From: Oceanospirillales bacterium
Lineage (GTDB): Bacteria; Pseudomonadota; Gammaproteobacteria; Pseudomonadales; Balneatricaceae
Assembly (NCBI GenBank): GCA_018223185.1
Contig: JAAEYW010000005.1
Span: forward strand, 62,001-126,000
Reading direction: 5' to 3'
DNA: 64,000 bases
Below, piece by piece: positions 44,918 through 54,835 of the stretch. Numbering within the stretch: position 1 is the stretch's first letter; each line of letters opens with the position of its first letter. Position numbers and translations under genes: made by a program. The notes below the pieces were generated by a model. It was not told the DNA's origin. It saw only the letters and a program-made list of their open reading frames with translations, and did no database searches.

Positions 44918-45583
44918 ATGATCACAGAAGATAATGACAAAAACGGACCCGCATCGATTCTGCTGATAGATGACCATCCACTGTTACGAAAAGGCGTAAA
45001 ACAGCTGATCGAACTGGACAGTCAGCTTCTCGTCATCGGTGAAGCCAGTAATGCAGAAGAAGGGATTACCCAGGCGACGCAACTGGAGCCTGACCTTATA
45101 CTGCTGGACCTGAACATGCCGGAAATCAACGGCATTGAAACCCTTAAGCTACTGCGGGATGCCGGTGTTGCATCCCGGGTTGTGGTCTTTACGGTTTCTG
45201 ACAATGAAGAAGACGTCATCGCTGCCCTGAAGGCCGGAGCCGACGGCTACCTTCTCAAAGATATGGAGCCTGAAGACCTGCTCAGCAATCTGAATCAGGC
45301 GGCCCTGGGTAAAATGGTGATCAGTGAACGTCTGTCTTCCATGCTGGCCCAGGCCCTGCAAAGTAATCGTAAACGGACCGGGCCGGATATAAGCAGCCTC
45401 TCCCCCAGAGAAAAGCAGATCATCAAGCTAATCGCAGGAGGACTGCCGAACAAACTCATTGCGCGGAAGCTGAATATTACCGAGGGCACGGTGAAGGTAC
45501 ATGTGAAGCATCTGTTTAAAAAACTCAACCTTCGCTCAAGGGTCGAAGTGGCTGTATGGGCCGTTCAGGAAGGTTTGGGATAA
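44918..45583 (+). CDS. narL: Nitrate/nitrite response regulator NarL
   Basis: The 221-residue protein has a receiver with Asp64 as the predicted phosphorylation site ([11 protein letters not shown]) and a LuxR/NarL helix-turn-helix ([26 protein letters not shown]...[15 protein letters not shown]). It starts 9 bp after narX with an AGAGG ribosome site. Its likely targets are the 7-2-7 heptamer pairs before narG, narK1 and the nasA-like gene. Confidence 0.96.
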
Positions 45584-46083
45584 CAACTGTTTGGCACGGG
45601 TACAACACACCAACAGAACTGCTTATAAATTACTCAGCAACGCCCCCCAGACCTGCCGGGATAAAAAATCCCCCGAAACAAAGTAACGGGGGCAGAGACT
45701 TTCTGTCAATATGAGCCTGAAATCATCGCATGCCGCTATTCCCAGCTTATGAGGTCAATACCCGCAGCTGAGGAAGATATTGCTTTTATGTATCGGCACA
45801 CCGACAAAACCAAGGCTAATCCAACCGCCCAGAAAAATGAATCACACTGAAGAGATATCTTCTCTACCCCTTATGCCCGGACAGAGTTTGACTTTTATCA
45901 TAGACAACAGCTACCGCTTCTGACGCAAGCAAATGCTTTTTAGCATCGGCTAAACACCGGCCATATACCTTATTTGGCGACGTATACCTCCTAAGACTCC
46001 TCCCGACCAAATAACACTAAAAACAACATCTTAAAAACAAAAAAAATCATATAAATCATAGAATTAACAGACAAAGCAATGCC
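45584..46083. other. Gene-free gap after narL with an orphan hairpin
   Basis: No convincing ORF. The stem CCCCCG/CGGGGG (45670-45692) is followed on the minus strand by ATTTTTT and so looks like a minus-strand terminator, though no minus-strand gene precedes it. An overlapping GGGAT/ATCCC stem could compete. A half-hearted FNR-like sequence (45888-45901) has no matching -10 on either strand. Confidence 0.45.
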
Positions 46084-46178
46084 TACCACCAAGGGAGTAT
46101 AGCGACCTGAACAGACCATGACAGCGCTCCAATGCGTTGACATGCATCAACGGTTTTTTCCTCTGAAAAGCCTATTTT
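46084..46178 (+). promoter_or_regulatory. Promoter of the nasA-like gene with NarL and FNR sites
   Basis: NarL-type pair TACCACC-AA-GGGAGTA is at 46084-46099. FNR box TTGAC-ATGC-ATCAA is at 46137-46150 (9 of 10). After exactly 22 bp comes TATTTT at 46173-46178 as the -10. The start is then near 46185, giving FNR at -41.5 and NarL at -93.5. This also rules out the earlier in-frame start codon at 46118. Confidence 0.75.
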
Positions 46179-46240
46179 CTAACTTAATTTTTATCTCCAA
46201 ATATTTTCAGGGCAGAGGTCCATTCCTCAGGAGCAGTCAA

Positions 46241-47713
46241 ATGTCCACTAATAAATTGCGTTTACTTAATTTTGGCGACCCCAAAATAAAAACCTTGCAC
46301 GTCACCTGGTTTGCCTTCTTCCTGACCTTTGTGGTCTGGTTCAGTCACGCCCCGATGCTGGCCTATATTAAGGATGTTTTCGGCCTCAGTAGTGCAGAGA
46401 TCAAGGCACTGATGATACTCAACGTAGCACTCACAATCCCCGCACGTATAGTGGTCGGCACACTGGTAGATAAATACGGTCCCCGGATAGTCTATAGCAT
46501 GCTACTGTTCATCGGCGGTGGCATCTGTATCGGTTTTGCACTGGCCCAGACCTATGAACAACTGGCAATCATGCGCTTTCTCAGTGGTTTTATCGGGGCC
46601 GGATTTGTCATCGGTATCCGTATGGTCGGTGAATGGTTTCCGGCTAAACAGGTTGGTGTCGCCGAAGGTATTTACGGTGGCTGGGGTAACTTTGGTTCAG
46701 CCGCTGGAGCCATGGCGCTGCCCACCATCGCGCTGATGTTCGGCGGTGAGCATGGCTGGCGTTATGCTCTGATCTCTATCGGTCTCATTGCCATGCTGTA
46801 CGGTTTACTGTTCTACAAAATAGCCCGTAATACTCCAAAGGGATCTACCTATTTCAAACCGAAAAAGCACGGCGGCCTGGAAGTCTCCAGCAAGAAGGAC
46901 TTTATATTCTACATTCTGATGAACCTGCCGATGTATGCTGCCCTGGCGGTACTTGCCTGGAAACTGTCGCCCAGCAATATAGGCCTGCTGGATCAGTTCG
47001 CAACCTACGCCATCTATGCCGTTCTGGTGGTGCTTTTTCTGGTACAGCTGAGGGCTATTTACCACGTAAATGAAGACAACCTTAAAAACGGCGTACCTGA
47101 AATCCAGCGTTACAAGTTTAAACAGGTAGCCGTGCTGGATGTAGCCTATTTCGTTACCTTTGGTTCCGAGCTGGCGGTTGTCTCCATGCTGCCTCTGTTC
47201 TTTCTGGAAACCTTTGACGGGCTGGACCCTGTCAAAGCCGGGCTGCTCGCCTCTGGATTTGCCTTTATGAATCTGGTGGCCCGGCCTACCGGCGGCCACC
47301 TGAGTGATACTATCGGAAGGCGCAAAACACTGAGTGTACTGATTCTCGGTCTGGCCGCAGGCTACTTCGTGCTTAGCCAGATCGACGGCGGCTGGTGGAT
47401 CCCGCTGGCGGTTATCGCCACTATGGCCTGCTCATTCTTTGTGCAGGCAGGAGAAGGTGCCGTATTCGCTGTAGTACCATTGATTCAGCGGAGGATGACC
47501 GGACAGATTGCCGGTATGGCCGGAGCCTATGGCAACGTCGGCGCGGTGTGCTACCTTACCGTGCTGAGTTTCGTCGACTATTCCACCTTCTTTATGGTGA
47601 TAGGAGCCTCCGCTGGCATAGCATTCCTGCTGGTACAGTTTATGGACGAACCCAGCGGCCAGATGGCCGAAGTGTTACCGGATGGTACCGTGCAGCTCAT
47701 CAATGTCGATTAA
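46241..47713 (+). CDS. NNP-family nitrate/nitrite MFS transporter (NasA-like)
   Basis: About 490 residues from the ATG at 46241, which has AGGAG 8 bases upstream; the open frame from 46118 lies across the promoter. Twelve membrane segments are expected. NNP signatures are [43 protein letters not shown] (written in part) and [18 protein letters not shown] long cytoplasmic loop splits the halves. The adjacent kinase gene recalls the Pseudomonas nasA-PA1782 pair of the assimilatory cluster, but here no nirB or nasC follows and the promoter has respiratory-type control. Confidence 0.88.
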
Positions 47714-50311: not shown

Positions 50312-50461
50312 TTATGGTTTTTCGCTAAAATGGCGGCGCTCTTTGTGCTCTGACTGCTTACCGGCGTTAAACTGGGATACCGGACGGTGATAGCCCATCA
50401 CCCGGGTCCAGATTTCACACCGCTGACGTTCTTCAGTTTTCAGTTCGTATGCTGCATTCAT
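50312..50461 (-). CDS. Separate glycyl-radical domain of class III ribonucleotide reductase
   Basis: A 49-residue ORF with AAGGAG 7 bases before its ATG. It contains RCEIWTRVMGYHRPVSQFN, and VMGYHRP carries the Gly23 expected to hold the radical, followed by FNAGKQSEH as at NrdD C-termini. The main NrdD upstream stops in frame before this domain, and 34 bp of spacer with a fresh ribosome site separate the two, so it is a true separate subunit rather than a frameshift. It must assemble with the large chain for activity. Confidence 0.85.
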   Translation of the reverse strand: MNAAYELKTEERQRCEIWTRVMGYHRPVSQFNAGKQSEHKERRHFSEKP

Positions 50462-50495
50462 GGTATTGCTCCTTGGTATTGTTAGCGCCCGGCCA

Positions 50496-52226
50496 CTACT
50501 GGACACAGGCGTTTGCTTGCTTTGCTTTTGAGAGTTTTTGTTGCATCCGCTCGGCATCACAACGCGGACAGAATTCGTGTTCCCCGGCCAGATAGCCATG
50601 CTGCGGACAGATGGAGAACGTCGGGGTAATCGTCAGGTATGGCAGCGCAAAACGGGTCAGCGATTGCTTCACCATCTGTTTACAGGCACGCACACTAGAG
50701 ATCCGCTCGCGCATATACAGATGCAATACGGTGCCACCGGTATAACGGGTCTGCAGGGCATCCTGCTTTTCCAACGCAAGAAACGGGTCATCGGTATAAC
50801 CCACCGGCAACTGACTGGAGTTGGTGTAATACGGATGTTCCGGCGTACCTGCCTGAAGGATATCCGGCCAGCGTTTGCGGTCCTCACGGGCAAAGCGATA
50901 CGTCGTGCCTTCGGCCGGCGTGGCCTCGAGGTTGAACAGGTGTCCGGTGTGTTCCTGAAACTCAGTCAGACGCTGATTAATATGATCCAGCAAGCGTAAC
51001 GCCTGCTCCTGTCCGGAATCACTGCTGATATCCAGCGTGTCCTGACTGAAGTTGCGCAGCATCTCGTTGATACCATTAACCCCGATAGTGGAAAAATGGT
51101 TCCGCAGGGTACCCAGATAGCGCTTGGTATAAGGAAACAACCCTTCATCCATCAGTTGCTGGATACGCTGCCGCTTCAGCTCCAGCGAATCCCGGGCCAG
51201 CAGCAGCAGATGATCCAGTTGCTGATACAGTTGTTCCCAGTCACCCCGGTACCGATAACCCAGCCGGGCACAGTTGATAGTGACCACGCCAAGGGAACCG
51301 GTCTGCTCCGCTGAGCCGAACAGACCGTTGCCCCGCTTCAGCAATTCCCGCAAATCAAGCTGTAGACGACAGCACATCGAGCGAACCATATTCGGCTCCA
51401 GATCTGAGCGGATAAAATTCTGAAAGTATGGCAAACCGTATTTTGCGGTCAGACCAAACAGCAGCTCTGCATTGGGGCTGTCCCAGTCAAAGTCGCGGGT
51501 GATGTTGTAGGTCGGTATCGGGAAGGTAAACACCCGGTCTTTAGCGTCTCCCGCAGCCATCACTTCCAGATAGGCGCGGTTGATCATATCCATTTCCTGC
51601 TGCAGTTCACCATAGGTAAACGGCATCTCCTCACCGGCAATCACCGGTACCTGCTGCTGCAGATCATCCGGACAGTGCCAGTCGAACGTCAGATTAGTAA
51701 AAGGAGTCTGAGTACCCCAGCGTGACGGCACATTCAGGTTGTAGATTAGCTCCTGTATCGATTGCAGCACCTGCTCATAGCTGAGGTTATCCTTACGGAT
51801 ATACGGCGCCAGATAAGTATCAAAGGAGCTGAACGCCTGAGCCCCGGCCCATTCGTTCTGCAGGGTGCCGAGAAAATTAACGATCTGACCGATAGCGCTG
51901 CTAAGATGCTTCGGCGCCCCACTCTCCAGCCGTCCGGGAATACCGTTCAAGCCTTCATACAACAGGGTGCGCAGGGACCAGCCTGCGCAATAGCCGGAAA
52001 GCATATCCAGATCATGAATATGCAGATCCCCTTCCCGGTGCGCCAGGCCAATCTGCGGGGTATACACCTCGTTCAGCCAGTAGTTAGCAATCACCTTCCC
52101 GGAGACATTCAGAATCAGGCCACCGAGCGAATACCCCTGATTGGCATTGGCATTAACCCGCCAGTCACTACGCTCAAGATACTCATCAATAGTACTCCTT
52201 ACGGCAACGCTGTCATTCCTGTCCAT
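50496..52226 (-). CDS. nrdD: Anaerobic (class III) ribonucleoside-triphosphate reductase, large part lacking the glycyl-radical tail
   Basis: The 576-residue protein has the NrdD barrel with catalytic cysteines in SGYCAGWSL (Cys80) and VRSMCCRLQLD, the HIHDLDM motif, and a C-terminal zinc site SICPQHGYLAGEHEFCPRC. It then ends without the RVxGY radical segment, which is encoded by the next ORF. It makes deoxynucleotides without oxygen. A promoter with two NrdR boxes and an FNR box precedes it. Confidence 0.93.
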   Translation of the reverse strand: MDRNDSVAVRSTIDEYLERSDWRVNANANQGYSLGGLILNVSGKVIANYWLNEVYTPQIGLAHREGDLHIHDLDMLSGYCAGWSLRTLLYEGLNGIPGRLESGAPKHLSSAIGQIVNFLGTLQNEWAGAQAFSSFDTYLAPYIRKDNLSYEQVLQSIQELIYNLNVPSRWGTQTPFTNLTFDWHCPDDLQQQVPVIAGEEMPFTYGELQQEMDMINRAYLEVMAAGDAKDRVFTFPIPTYNITRDFDWDSPNAELLFGLTAKYGLPYFQNFIRSDLEPNMVRSMCCRLQLDLRELLKRGNGLFGSAEQTGSLGVVTINCARLGYRYRGDWEQLYQQLDHLLLLARDSLELKRQRIQQLMDEGLFPYTKRYLGTLRNHFSTIGVNGINEMLRNFSQDTLDISSDSGQEQALRLLDHINQRLTEFQEHTGHLFNLEATPAEGTTYRFAREDRKRWPDILQAGTPEHPYYTNSSQLPVGYTDDPFLALEKQDALQTRYTGGTVLHLYMRERISSVRACKQMVKQSLTRFALPYLTITPTFSICPQHGYLAGEHEFCPRCDAERMQQKLSKAKQANACVQ

Positions 52227-52284: not shown

Positions 52285-52355
52285 ATTATGTTTAATCAGG
52301 CCCCTTGATAACCTTGACACATATCAAGGGCATTCATTTTTTTTTCGCCTAACAT
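52285..52355. promoter_or_regulatory. Shared FNR box of divergent nrdD and ubiT promoters
   Basis: TTGAC-ACAT-ATCAA (52314-52327; 9 of 10) lies between the two genes. Toward ubiT it is 22 bp from TAACAT (52350-52355), placing the start near 52362 (-41.5). Toward nrdD it is 23 bp from CATAAT (52290-52285), giving about -42.5. One box can therefore serve both directions. Confidence 0.75.
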
Positions 52356-52382: not shown

Positions 52383-52865
52383 ATGCGACTAATACCCGGA
52401 CTAGCCCCCCTATCCCGACTCCCCCTCTTCGGACTACTTCAGCGCAGCCAGACATATATTCCATTTCGTCTGAAACAGGCAGTACTGGCTCCACTGCTGA
52501 ATCATCTGTTTAAGGAGCAACTGCAGGACGGGGAGTTCTGTTTTCTCGAGGGACGACGGCTTGGGCTGGAGGTCAGAGATCTGGATATATCTCTGGCGTT
52601 CGGTTGTCATGACGAACAACTACAGGTAGTACCTGCCGACCAGCCAGATGCCTGGATTCGTGGTAACAGCCGGGACTTTATGCAACTGGCAAATCAGGCG
52701 GAAGACCCGGATACCCTGTTTTTCCAGCGTCGTTTGTCAATTGAAGGGGATACCGAACTGGGGCTGGCAGTCAAAAACCTGCTGGATAGCATCGACTGGA
52801 GTGAGATGCCTGCGCTGTATCAGCACAGCCTGAAACTGATACAGCGGTTGCAGAGCGGTAGCTGA
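52383..52865 (+). CDS. ubiT: UbiT, SCP2-domain protein of O2-independent ubiquinone synthesis
   Basis: The 160-residue protein has an SCP2 lipid-binding fold (QDGEFCFLEGRRLGLEVRDLDI, DTLFFQRRLSIEGDTELGLAVKN in part). With UbiU and UbiV it is required for ubiquinone synthesis without oxygen, where it is thought to replace UbiJ as lipid carrier. CAGGAG precedes the ATG. It is convergent with ubiV. Confidence 0.9.
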   Translation: MRLIPGLAPLSRLPLFGLLQRSQTYIPFRLKQAVLAPLLNHLFKEQLQDGEFCFLEGRRLGLEVRDLDISLAFGCHDEQLQVVPADQPDAWIRGNSRDFMQLANQAEDPDTLFFQRRLSIEGDTELGLAVKNLLDSIDWSEMPALYQHSLKLIQRLQSGS

Positions 52866-52899
52866 ACCGCCGCCCTGATTCAGAGCCCTCGGGAAAGCA

Positions 52900-53799
52900 T
52901 TACTCCACCCGATTCATACCGGGCTGACCATACCAGTAGCCGTTGCACTGACTGGCATTTAACAAGGGTATAGCGGCCGGGCTGTCGCCCTGTAAGCGAT
53001 CGTGAAAACGCTTAACAACCTCCGCCATCCCCTGCTGTTGCGGACTGAGACGCACCAGCCCAACCCCCATCGACGTCATCCGTTCCAGCTCATATTCCAG
53101 ATTATACACCCCACTGGAAAGAGTCTGGATGCCGTTCATGCTGAACAGCTCGGTACCCTCCTGAGAGCGCACCTGAATACCGTCGGGATATTCGATGCAA
53201 CAAAAGTTACAGTTATCCTTCGGCAGATTACGGTAACGGGCAGTAAAACAGCGGGCCGCGTAGGCCAGCGGTAAACAGCCATAGGCAAACACTTCGGTTT
53301 CCAGCTGCGCCAGCCCACCGTCATCCGCAGCCTCCTGCAACAGAGTATCGAGCGTCTGTGCCGAGAGTTCAACCGGCATCACCCAGCGGCGCATACCGCT
53401 GGCATACAACCGTTTCAGCACTGCCAGATTGTAGATATTGATCGACGGGCCGGTAATAAAAGGCACGCCCTGCTGGCTGAGTAAATACACCGCTGCCATA
53501 TCATTGGCTTCGACCATAAACTCGCCGTTGTCACAAATGCGGCGCAACATTTTCAGCTCGGATTCCGCCTCCAGCAGCGCCAGACTGGATAATACCACCC
53601 GTTTACCGCAGGCCGTCAGGTCGCGACCGATCTCCAGCCAGTCATCCAGCTTCAGCTGCCTGCGCTTGGAACAGACCGTTTCTCCCAGATAGATAGTATC
53701 CAGCGGCTGCTCCGCCATCTCCGCGTAAAAGTTATAAACAGCCTGCTTCGGCCAGAAATAAAGCAAAGGCCCCAGTGACAAGCGCATGTTGTGTTCCAT
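52900..53799 (-). CDS. ubiV: UbiV, U32-family hydroxylase component
   Basis: About 299 residues from the ATG at 53799, with GGGGA upstream; a frame open to 53868 overlaps ubiU. It begins [20 protein letters not shown]. The Fe-S cysteines are in [10 protein letters not shown] and [13 protein letters not shown]. With UbiU it forms a 4Fe-4S heterodimer that hydroxylates the ubiquinone ring using prephenate as oxygen donor. It follows ubiU by 10 bp. Confidence 0.92.
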
Positions 53800-53809
53800 A
53801 TCCGGTCCC

Positions 53810-54802
53810 CTACTGCCAGTTACGGTGGTAGGCGCCAATCGTTGTCGTGGCACCTTCCGAAAGTTCATTCAAACCGTTATTCCACTCCGGGCGAACCCGA
53901 AAAGCCCCTAACGCACGGGATGTATCCAGTGCTTCACGCCAGATCCGGGTTACCCGGGCAACGTAAGCAGGACTTCGTTGCCGCCCTTCAATTTTCACCG
54001 CTTTAATACCGATCCGCTGCAATTCAGGAATCAGATCCAGCGTATTCAGGCTGGTCGGCTCTTCCATCGCATGATAGACATGCCCTTCAACCTCAAAGCG
54101 CCCCTTGCACAGCGTCGGATAACCGGCTTTTTCGTCTGCACTATACCGGTCGATCAGTACTTCGTTGAGACGCGACTCCAGCCCCTGAGGGGTTTCCTGC
54201 CAGCGCACCGCCTTCGCTGGCGAGCAGGCACCACAGGTATTCGGAGATTCATCAGTAAGATAAGAGGAGAGATAACAACGCCCTTCCAGCATGATACAGA
54301 GACTGCCAAAGGCAAATACTTCCAGTTCCACCGGTGAGTGCGCCGCCAGATGTTCCACCTGAGCAAGGGAAAGCACCCGGGGCAACACCGCACGCTGGAT
54401 ACCAAACTGCTGCTGATAATACCGCAGAGCTTCGTAGTTGGTCGCCGACCCCTGCACCGACAGATGCAGACGCAGATCCGGATGACGCCCCGCAGCATAA
54501 CCCAGCACCCCCATATCGGCAGCAATCAGCGCATCGACCTGTAAGCCCGCCGCCATATCCACCGCCGCACGCCAGGTTTCCCAACCTTCCGGCTGGGGAT
54601 AGGTATTGATAGCACAGAGCACTTTAACCCCCCGGGAGCGGGCATAGTCGATACCTTTTTCCGCCTTGCGCCGGTCAAAATTAAGACCGGCAAACTGACG
54701 CGCATTGGTTTTATCCCGAAAACCGAAATACACCGTATCGGCTCCGCCATCCACCGCCGCTTTCAATGCGGGAAAACTGCCCGCCGGGCACACTAGTTCC
54801 AC
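53810..54802 (-). CDS. ubiU: UbiU, U32-family hydroxylase component
   Basis: About 330 residues from a GTG at 54802, which has CAGGAG 6 bases before it and gives the family N-terminus [17 protein letters not shown]; an ATG at 54829 is in frame but coincides with the predicted transcription start. It contains [22 protein letters not shown] (in part) and Cys residues in [17 protein letters not shown] and [10 protein letters not shown]. It is the partner of UbiV in anaerobic ring hydroxylation. Confidence 0.92.
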
Positions 54803-54835
54803 AGCCAACTCCTGTATCAATAATGACAAAGAGAC

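Follow-up and report, generated by a model that had tools for sequence, protein, structure and literature searches.

A class III ribonucleotide reductase probably encoded as two chains, with a separate glycyl-radical gene that also occurs alone in prophages and viral contigs

Class III ribonucleotide reductase produces the building blocks of DNA under anaerobic conditions. In the window analyzed here, a stretch of 64,000 nucleotides from an Oceanospirillales bacterium (contig JAAEYW010000005.1, positions 62,001 to 126,000), the gene for this reductase, nrdD, ends ahead of the region that would carry the radical glycine, which is found in a small open reading frame (ORF) of its own. The locus raises the question of whether these two frames encode a working enzyme of two chains or are the remnants of a single one. 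Its features are as follows.

52314-52327, minus strand: presumed FNR/ANR-type box, TTGATATGTGTCAA, 87 nt upstream of the nrdD start
52226-50496, minus strand: nrdD, 576 aa, with barrel, MCCR finger loop and zinc site, lacking both ATP cone and radical glycine
50474-50469, minus strand: AAGGAG ribosome-binding site of the glycyl-radical gene, 7 nt upstream of its ATG, located by reading the sequence
50461-50312, minus strand: glycyl-radical (GR) subunit gene, 49 aa, with the motif RVMGYHRP and its Gly23
50295-49591, minus strand: nrdG, encoding an NrdG2 activase of 234 aa

The nrdD frame closes with a TAG codon (50498-50496) directly after CPQHGYLAGEHEFCPRC and is separated by 34 nt from the 49-aa ORF, which lies in a frame offset by one base and is followed by nrdG. 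NrdD matches the Pfam NRDD model (PF13597) over model positions 2-531 (E 1.7e-171), while the small protein matches the same model over positions 531-562 (E 8.3e-9), and these complementary stretches indicate that the two ORFs correspond to a single enzyme, divided past the zinc site. The preliminary description had proposed both that NrdD terminates after this site and that the radical domain is a separate ORF with an AAGGAG site, and both proposals are borne out; the radical glycine is absent from the NrdD chain itself. The zinc site (CPxH...CPRC), which is predicted to bind zinc, is present and kept in relatives, and the MCCR finger loop is invariant in a 75-row alignment (A5). The lack of an ATP cone is apparent from the match to the 684-long PRK08270 model, which begins at position 96, and NrdG is assigned to the NrdG2 type by TIGR02495 (201.9 bits versus the NCBIfam cut-off of 131.15). 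The GR protein has no match at E <= 1 to the Gly_radical domain PF01228.

A search of the organism's own genome (43 contigs, completeness 99.41) with the NRDD model returned two matches only, the NrdD core and the GR protein, so that a second full-length nrdD, the existence of which the preliminary description had named as fatal to its reading, was rejected. A profile search of the same genome for the pyruvate formate-lyase/YfiD domain PF01228 gave none, and a role of the GR protein in pyruvate formate-lyase was likewise discarded, given the absence of this domain from both protein and genome. The sole further reductase in the genome belongs to class I, with a single PF02867 match in a 754-aa NrdA-like ORF adjoined by an NrdB-like ORF (both named by eye), and the split enzyme is hence the only oxygen-independent reductase seen. 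The nrdD operon is adjoined by ubiT (52383-52865), ubiV and ubiU, with narL and narK further away; the ubi genes serve oxygen-independent ubiquinone synthesis, and these ubi and nar genes together occupy the stretches 52383-54829 and 44918-47713. The box at 52314-52327, which we take to be of FNR/ANR type, is one of five matches to that motif in the window (two of them forming one palindrome) versus 0.34 expected. Taken together, the ubi and nar genes and the putative FNR-type box would fit expression during nitrate respiration.

The arrangement recurs widely. In genome samples that overlap in part, an NRDD match was present in 19 of 116 genomes of the family (16 split, one fused, one a fragment and one a weak partial match), in 57 of 390 of the order (32 split, 25 fused), in 38 of 369 of the class (28 split, seven fused, three assigned to neither), in 26 of 249 of the phylum (eight split, 18 fused) and in 29 of 240 of the Alphaproteobacteria (19 split, nine fused, one of these with a long linker, and one, G1271, counted as neither). 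The split genomes comprise 15 with GR as a separate match and one with an in-frame stop in the family, and 27 with a separate match and five with a match passing through an in-frame stop in the order, where G437 was classed as split by its two separate matches; G1269 (locus L321), with no stop between NrdD and GR, was counted as fused. A scan of named genomes, which began from split GR proteins and is biased toward split loci, yielded 80 loci from 535 relatives, 79 of them split and the remaining one (L165) a prophage GR gene without adjoining NrdD. By name, these 80 loci fall into the Pseudomonadota (75), the Verrucomicrobiota (three) and the Omnitrophota (one), with one unplaced. In the Verrucomicrobiota, at least 129 of 194 genomes have an NRDD match.

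Several of these loci display peculiarities of their own. The nrdD core at G205:C163:15337-17079 contains nine in-frame TGA codons, pointing to either a recoded stop or poor sequence. Intein-like in-frame inserts of several hundred residues occur in the cores of G620:C2:195825-198362, G863:C66 (L233) and L432, each of which is accompanied by a separate GR gene. In Halomonas olivaria (G864:C1:2565285-2567071, L120) the core lies in three pieces in different frames, followed by an intact GR gene, and is either a broken gene or the product of sequence errors, whereas on the Bradyrhizobium japonicum plasmid pS11L-3 (L170) nrdD lacks its N-terminal part near an IS3-like element, with the GR gene and nrdG intact.

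The small genes bear the marks of independent translation and of selection. An SD-like site precedes the nearest in-frame ATG in 104 of the 132 distinct bacterial GR sequences that could be assessed (from 156 loci, the rest being repeats or without an ATG in range), against 9.8% of 5277 control ATGs, and a strong site does so in 85 of the 132, against 2%; for viral loci the figures are 29 of 38 against 11.3% of 1502. As judged from a 108-nt GR block, GR genes are under purifying selection, with a pN/pS of 0.153 over 1709 bacterial and other pairs and of 0.135 over 40 viral pairs (pairs that are not independent), and a locus from the same genus (L014) differs from that of the window by seven synonymous changes and one nonsynonymous change. 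The view that both ORFs belong to a single gene interrupted by sequencing error, or to a dying one, could draw on the short gap and shifted frame of the window locus and on the broken genes of H. olivaria and the Bradyrhizobium plasmid. Sequencing error, which the preliminary description had also listed against itself, is nevertheless excluded by recurrence, since 16 of the 19 family genomes with a match are split, as are 79 of the 80 loci from named genomes, and the SD sites, the low pN/pS and the changes relative to L014 make the whole explanation extremely improbable.

Readthrough or programmed frameshifting, by which the two frames would yield a single fused chain, fares hardly better. In about one third of loci (47 of 156 distinct split loci or cores) the GR sequence does share the NrdD frame, with at least one stop between them, but it occupies the other two frames in 54 and 55, and its motif begins anywhere from 31 to 393 nt past the NrdD stop. 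With this mixture of frames and spacings, an SD site of its own, and GR copies that are unlinked or viral, we rejected readthrough and frameshifting as highly improbable.

Evidence from living cells comes from Cupriavidus necator H16, in which the operon on plasmid pHG1 consists of nrdD (676 aa), a 66-aa gene also called 'nrdD' and nrdG, and is therefore split. The nrdDG genes of this strain are reported to be essential for complete denitrification, and cobalamin to counter the defect of the plasmid-free strain (PMC2864759), an effect reported to run by way of class II; with the pHG1 operon split and its nrdDG reported essential, the split enzyme appears to be functional in a cell. The same study lists C. 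metallidurans NrdDG as Rmet_5137 and Rmet_5139, and the locus number between them could be the small GR gene. A further source lists pHG1 with NrdD and NrdG only (PMC3019208). In plasmid records the small gene is labeled nrdD in RefSeq, or hypothetical, and a literature search that covered papers as listings or passages returned no description of a separate NrdD radical chain or of its phage copies.

GR genes are also found away from nrdD. In 17 loci from bacterial genomes, two of which lie near a contig end (L364 and L365), neither an NrdD core nor NrdG was detected in the fetched stretch. In five of the 17, the PHROGs collection identifies phage neighbors, one locus per line:

L226: stand-alone GR gene, neighbors integrase and endolysin
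L228 and L360: stand-alone GR genes, neighbor endolysin
L173: stand-alone GR gene, neighbor tape measure
L366: stand-alone GR gene, neighbor Sak4-like

Elsewhere, an SSB gene adjoins the GR gene in L174, nuclease and mobilization-like genes (by eye) surround it in L357, and the neighborhoods of L363 and L370 have no PHROG match. Number and linkage vary too: G855 carries four GR genes for one NrdD, G1219 has its sole detected GR gene on a different contig from NrdD, and in G314, where the single NrdD match is a fused one belonging to a different type, a GR gene lies in a prophage. One extra GR gene of G855, a sheep-rumen alphaproteobacterial MAG, lies behind atp genes named by eye (L225).

In viral contigs the stand-alone form prevails. 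Scans of IMG/VR gave 56 loci and then the best 80 of 83, on at least 131 distinct contigs by name, a figure that includes near-copies and is not a number of virus kinds, and of which the records may be fragments. Among the loci listed, 55 of the 56 and 79 of the 80 had no NrdD core in the fetched stretch, and when 100 viral records were searched over their whole length, 98 (49 of 50 in each of two sets) contained the GR stretch only, the exceptions being L296, with a fused NrdD, and L432, in which the GR gene precedes a separate core. In eight viral loci, nine of ten neighbors tested match phage families (DNA polymerase, clamp loader, helicase, replication initiation, tail fiber, endolysin and ATPase), and all six GR proteins tested match the C-terminal part of PHROG 4132, a family with function unassigned. 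In the viral GR proteins of L251, L252, L255, L263 and L293, the radical motif is preceded by an N-terminal segment rich in cysteine. Among named phages, tblastn with GR proteins found one free-standing case, that of ANMV-1 virus, a virus of an archaeon, the other matches being annotated NrdD large subunits or fused (MT835493.1); on this result, named phage genomes are nearly devoid of the free GR gene that IMG/VR contigs contain. The ANMV-1 virus ORF, of 115 aa with cysteine pairs of its own, is accompanied by no NrdD core found in the record. It is annotated as anaerobic ribonucleoside triphosphate reductase (L458, KP703175.1, 25525-25959), with an annotated start that overlaps a tRNA-Met gene; the 115 aa are counted from the next ATG. 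The occurrence of stand-alone copies in both prophages and viral contigs, which goes further than the preliminary description, makes it likely that the GR protein acts in trans.

The history of the split was approached with a tree of 48 representatives, chosen from 218 distinct cores by thinning to 80% identity and by omitting far types and, with one exception, rows without GR in the locus. One branch (100/99) unites 31 split rows, one unlinked row and four fused rows, the latter (L062, L315, L316 and L321) nested inside the split branch, so that separation is not required for function. In L321 a long in-frame linker ends in the region where the small protein usually starts, and a re-fusion is likely. 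A second type of split, in the Verrucomicrobiota, stands apart in the tree (100/99, two rows), and its small protein (MAKCGEKTEVYSRVCGYFRP...) starts inside the zinc site; given these differing cut points, the split may have arisen in two separate events. Split and fused states require five changes on the tree, which does not distinguish gain of the split from its loss.

A structure was predicted with AlphaFold for a relative with an in-frame stop (L018), read through and supported by 75 rows, after a first model from 18 rows had proved poor (pLDDT 64.6). The chains in this model are joined by the read-through linker, making it a tethered stand-in for the complex that is silent on the binding of separate chains. 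It has a pLDDT of 87.5 and a pTM of 0.89, with 88-94 in the GR blocks (77 in the last six residues), 54-62 in the linker and 47-63 in the finger-loop region (residues 281-310), the last too low to place the glycine relative to the cysteine. Among PDB chains, 8p2s_B is the closest (TMq 0.77, versus 0.65 for 8p2s_A). The radical domain of that enzyme is described as ordered in one monomer only (PMC11226230), and chain B, with 651 versus 550 residues, is presumably the ordered one.

Taking these lines together, we consider it probable that this enzyme is a class III reductase of two chains, its radical subunit being docked non-covalently (probability about 0.85, judged from sequence). That the enzyme comes in two pieces, as the preliminary description held, is strongly supported by conservation, by separate start sites, by purifying selection and by the lack of a second NrdD in the genome search, and the non-covalent assembly that it added is suggested by analogy and by the tethered model. 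Under the two-chain reading, NrdD and the 49-residue GR protein would be translated separately from genes in a row before nrdG; the Gly23 loop of the small chain would insert into the NrdD barrel by the MCCR finger loop, NrdG2 would generate the glycyl radical on the small chain, and the radical would pass to a finger-loop cysteine for NTP reduction. As the radical would reside on the small chain, oxygen cleavage would be confined to it, and a fresh copy could be substituted; the host enzyme might then draw on the stand-alone copies of phages and prophages as replacement radical subunits. Against the two-chain reading stand the fused relatives inside the split branch, the fused state of the enzyme in 18 of the 26 genomes with a match in the phylum sample and in 25 of the 57 in the order sample, and the prophage copy of G314, which shares its genome with a fused NrdD of another type only.

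The solved single-chain NrdD enzymes (Thermotoga maritima, Prevotella copri, S. thermophilus and phage T4) share with the window enzyme the barrel, MCCR loop, zinc site, R-V-x-G-Y radical loop, adjoining nrdG and Pfam family. The radical loop of the window enzyme, unlike theirs, is a chain of its own with a separate start codon. Closer in form are YfiD (GrcA) of Escherichia coli and Y06I of phage T4, small autonomous glycyl-radical proteins that act in trans as spare parts of pyruvate formate-lyase, Y06I being phage-borne; according to Andorfer et al. 2021 (PMC8683613), these two alone are validated as spare parts, both for pyruvate formate-lyase, with others possible. The GR protein of the window, in contrast, belongs to the NRDD C-terminus, in a genome where PF01228 is absent, and for bacteria with the split it is the sole radical domain and not a back-up. 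The resemblance to YfiD advanced in the preliminary description thus holds for a small separate glycyl-radical protein and does not extend to a repair copy, as the genome search found this GR domain alone and no full-length copy to be mended. NrdJa/NrdJb is likewise a reductase encoded as two chains, but of class II and dependent on B12. In phages, reductase frames in pieces (Aeh1 nrdA-a/nrdA-b, phiAS4 nrdD and phage 949 nrdD) are described (PMC3653736), broken within one locus by a homing endonuclease, an intron or unexplained, whereas here the GR gene stands alone on viral contigs.

Two other accounts accept two chains and dispute their purpose. The split might serve as a regulatory switch, in which radical content or activity depends on how much GR chain is present or on how it docks; dATP is reported to act by loosening the radical domain in P. 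copri NrdD (PMC11226230), and the window NrdD is without an ATP cone. However, split NrdDs in the class sample occur both with and without an N-terminal extension (open frames of about 575 to over 700), so that having the split does not depend on having lost the cone, and we regard a switch as unlikely. Ordinary gene fission, in which the chains reassociate with no replacement or spare role and the viral copies are passengers or, for example, inhibit or retune the host enzyme, is a possible though doubtful explanation. Split reductases of other classes are on record (PMC9669993), and with only five changes on the tree the trait may reflect inheritance and not selection. Fission of this kind is at odds with the stand-alone copies in prophages and viral contigs, with the several GR genes for a single NrdD in G855, with selection on the viral copies, and with a second split at another cut point.

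Oxygen cuts the chain of the anaerobic reductase at the glycyl-radical residue (PMC3019208), which makes the glycyl radical the weak point of the enzyme; with a separate radical chain of 49 residues, such damage would cost the cell a cheap part instead of the whole enzyme. Beyond the two-chain enzyme itself, we think it an evenly balanced proposition that the class III radical subunit can diffuse and be exchanged, that it became detached on at least two occasions, and that phages and prophages carry it alone so as to sustain or resume the anaerobic synthesis of dNTPs in the host. This would then be the first spare-part system of a glycyl-radical enzyme beyond pyruvate formate-lyase, and PHROG 4132 would belong to it. 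The finding matters for the annotation of small genes now labeled nrdD or hypothetical, it suggests a function for the phage genes of PHROG 4132, and the split GR family makes the existence of spare parts beyond pyruvate formate-lyase directly testable.
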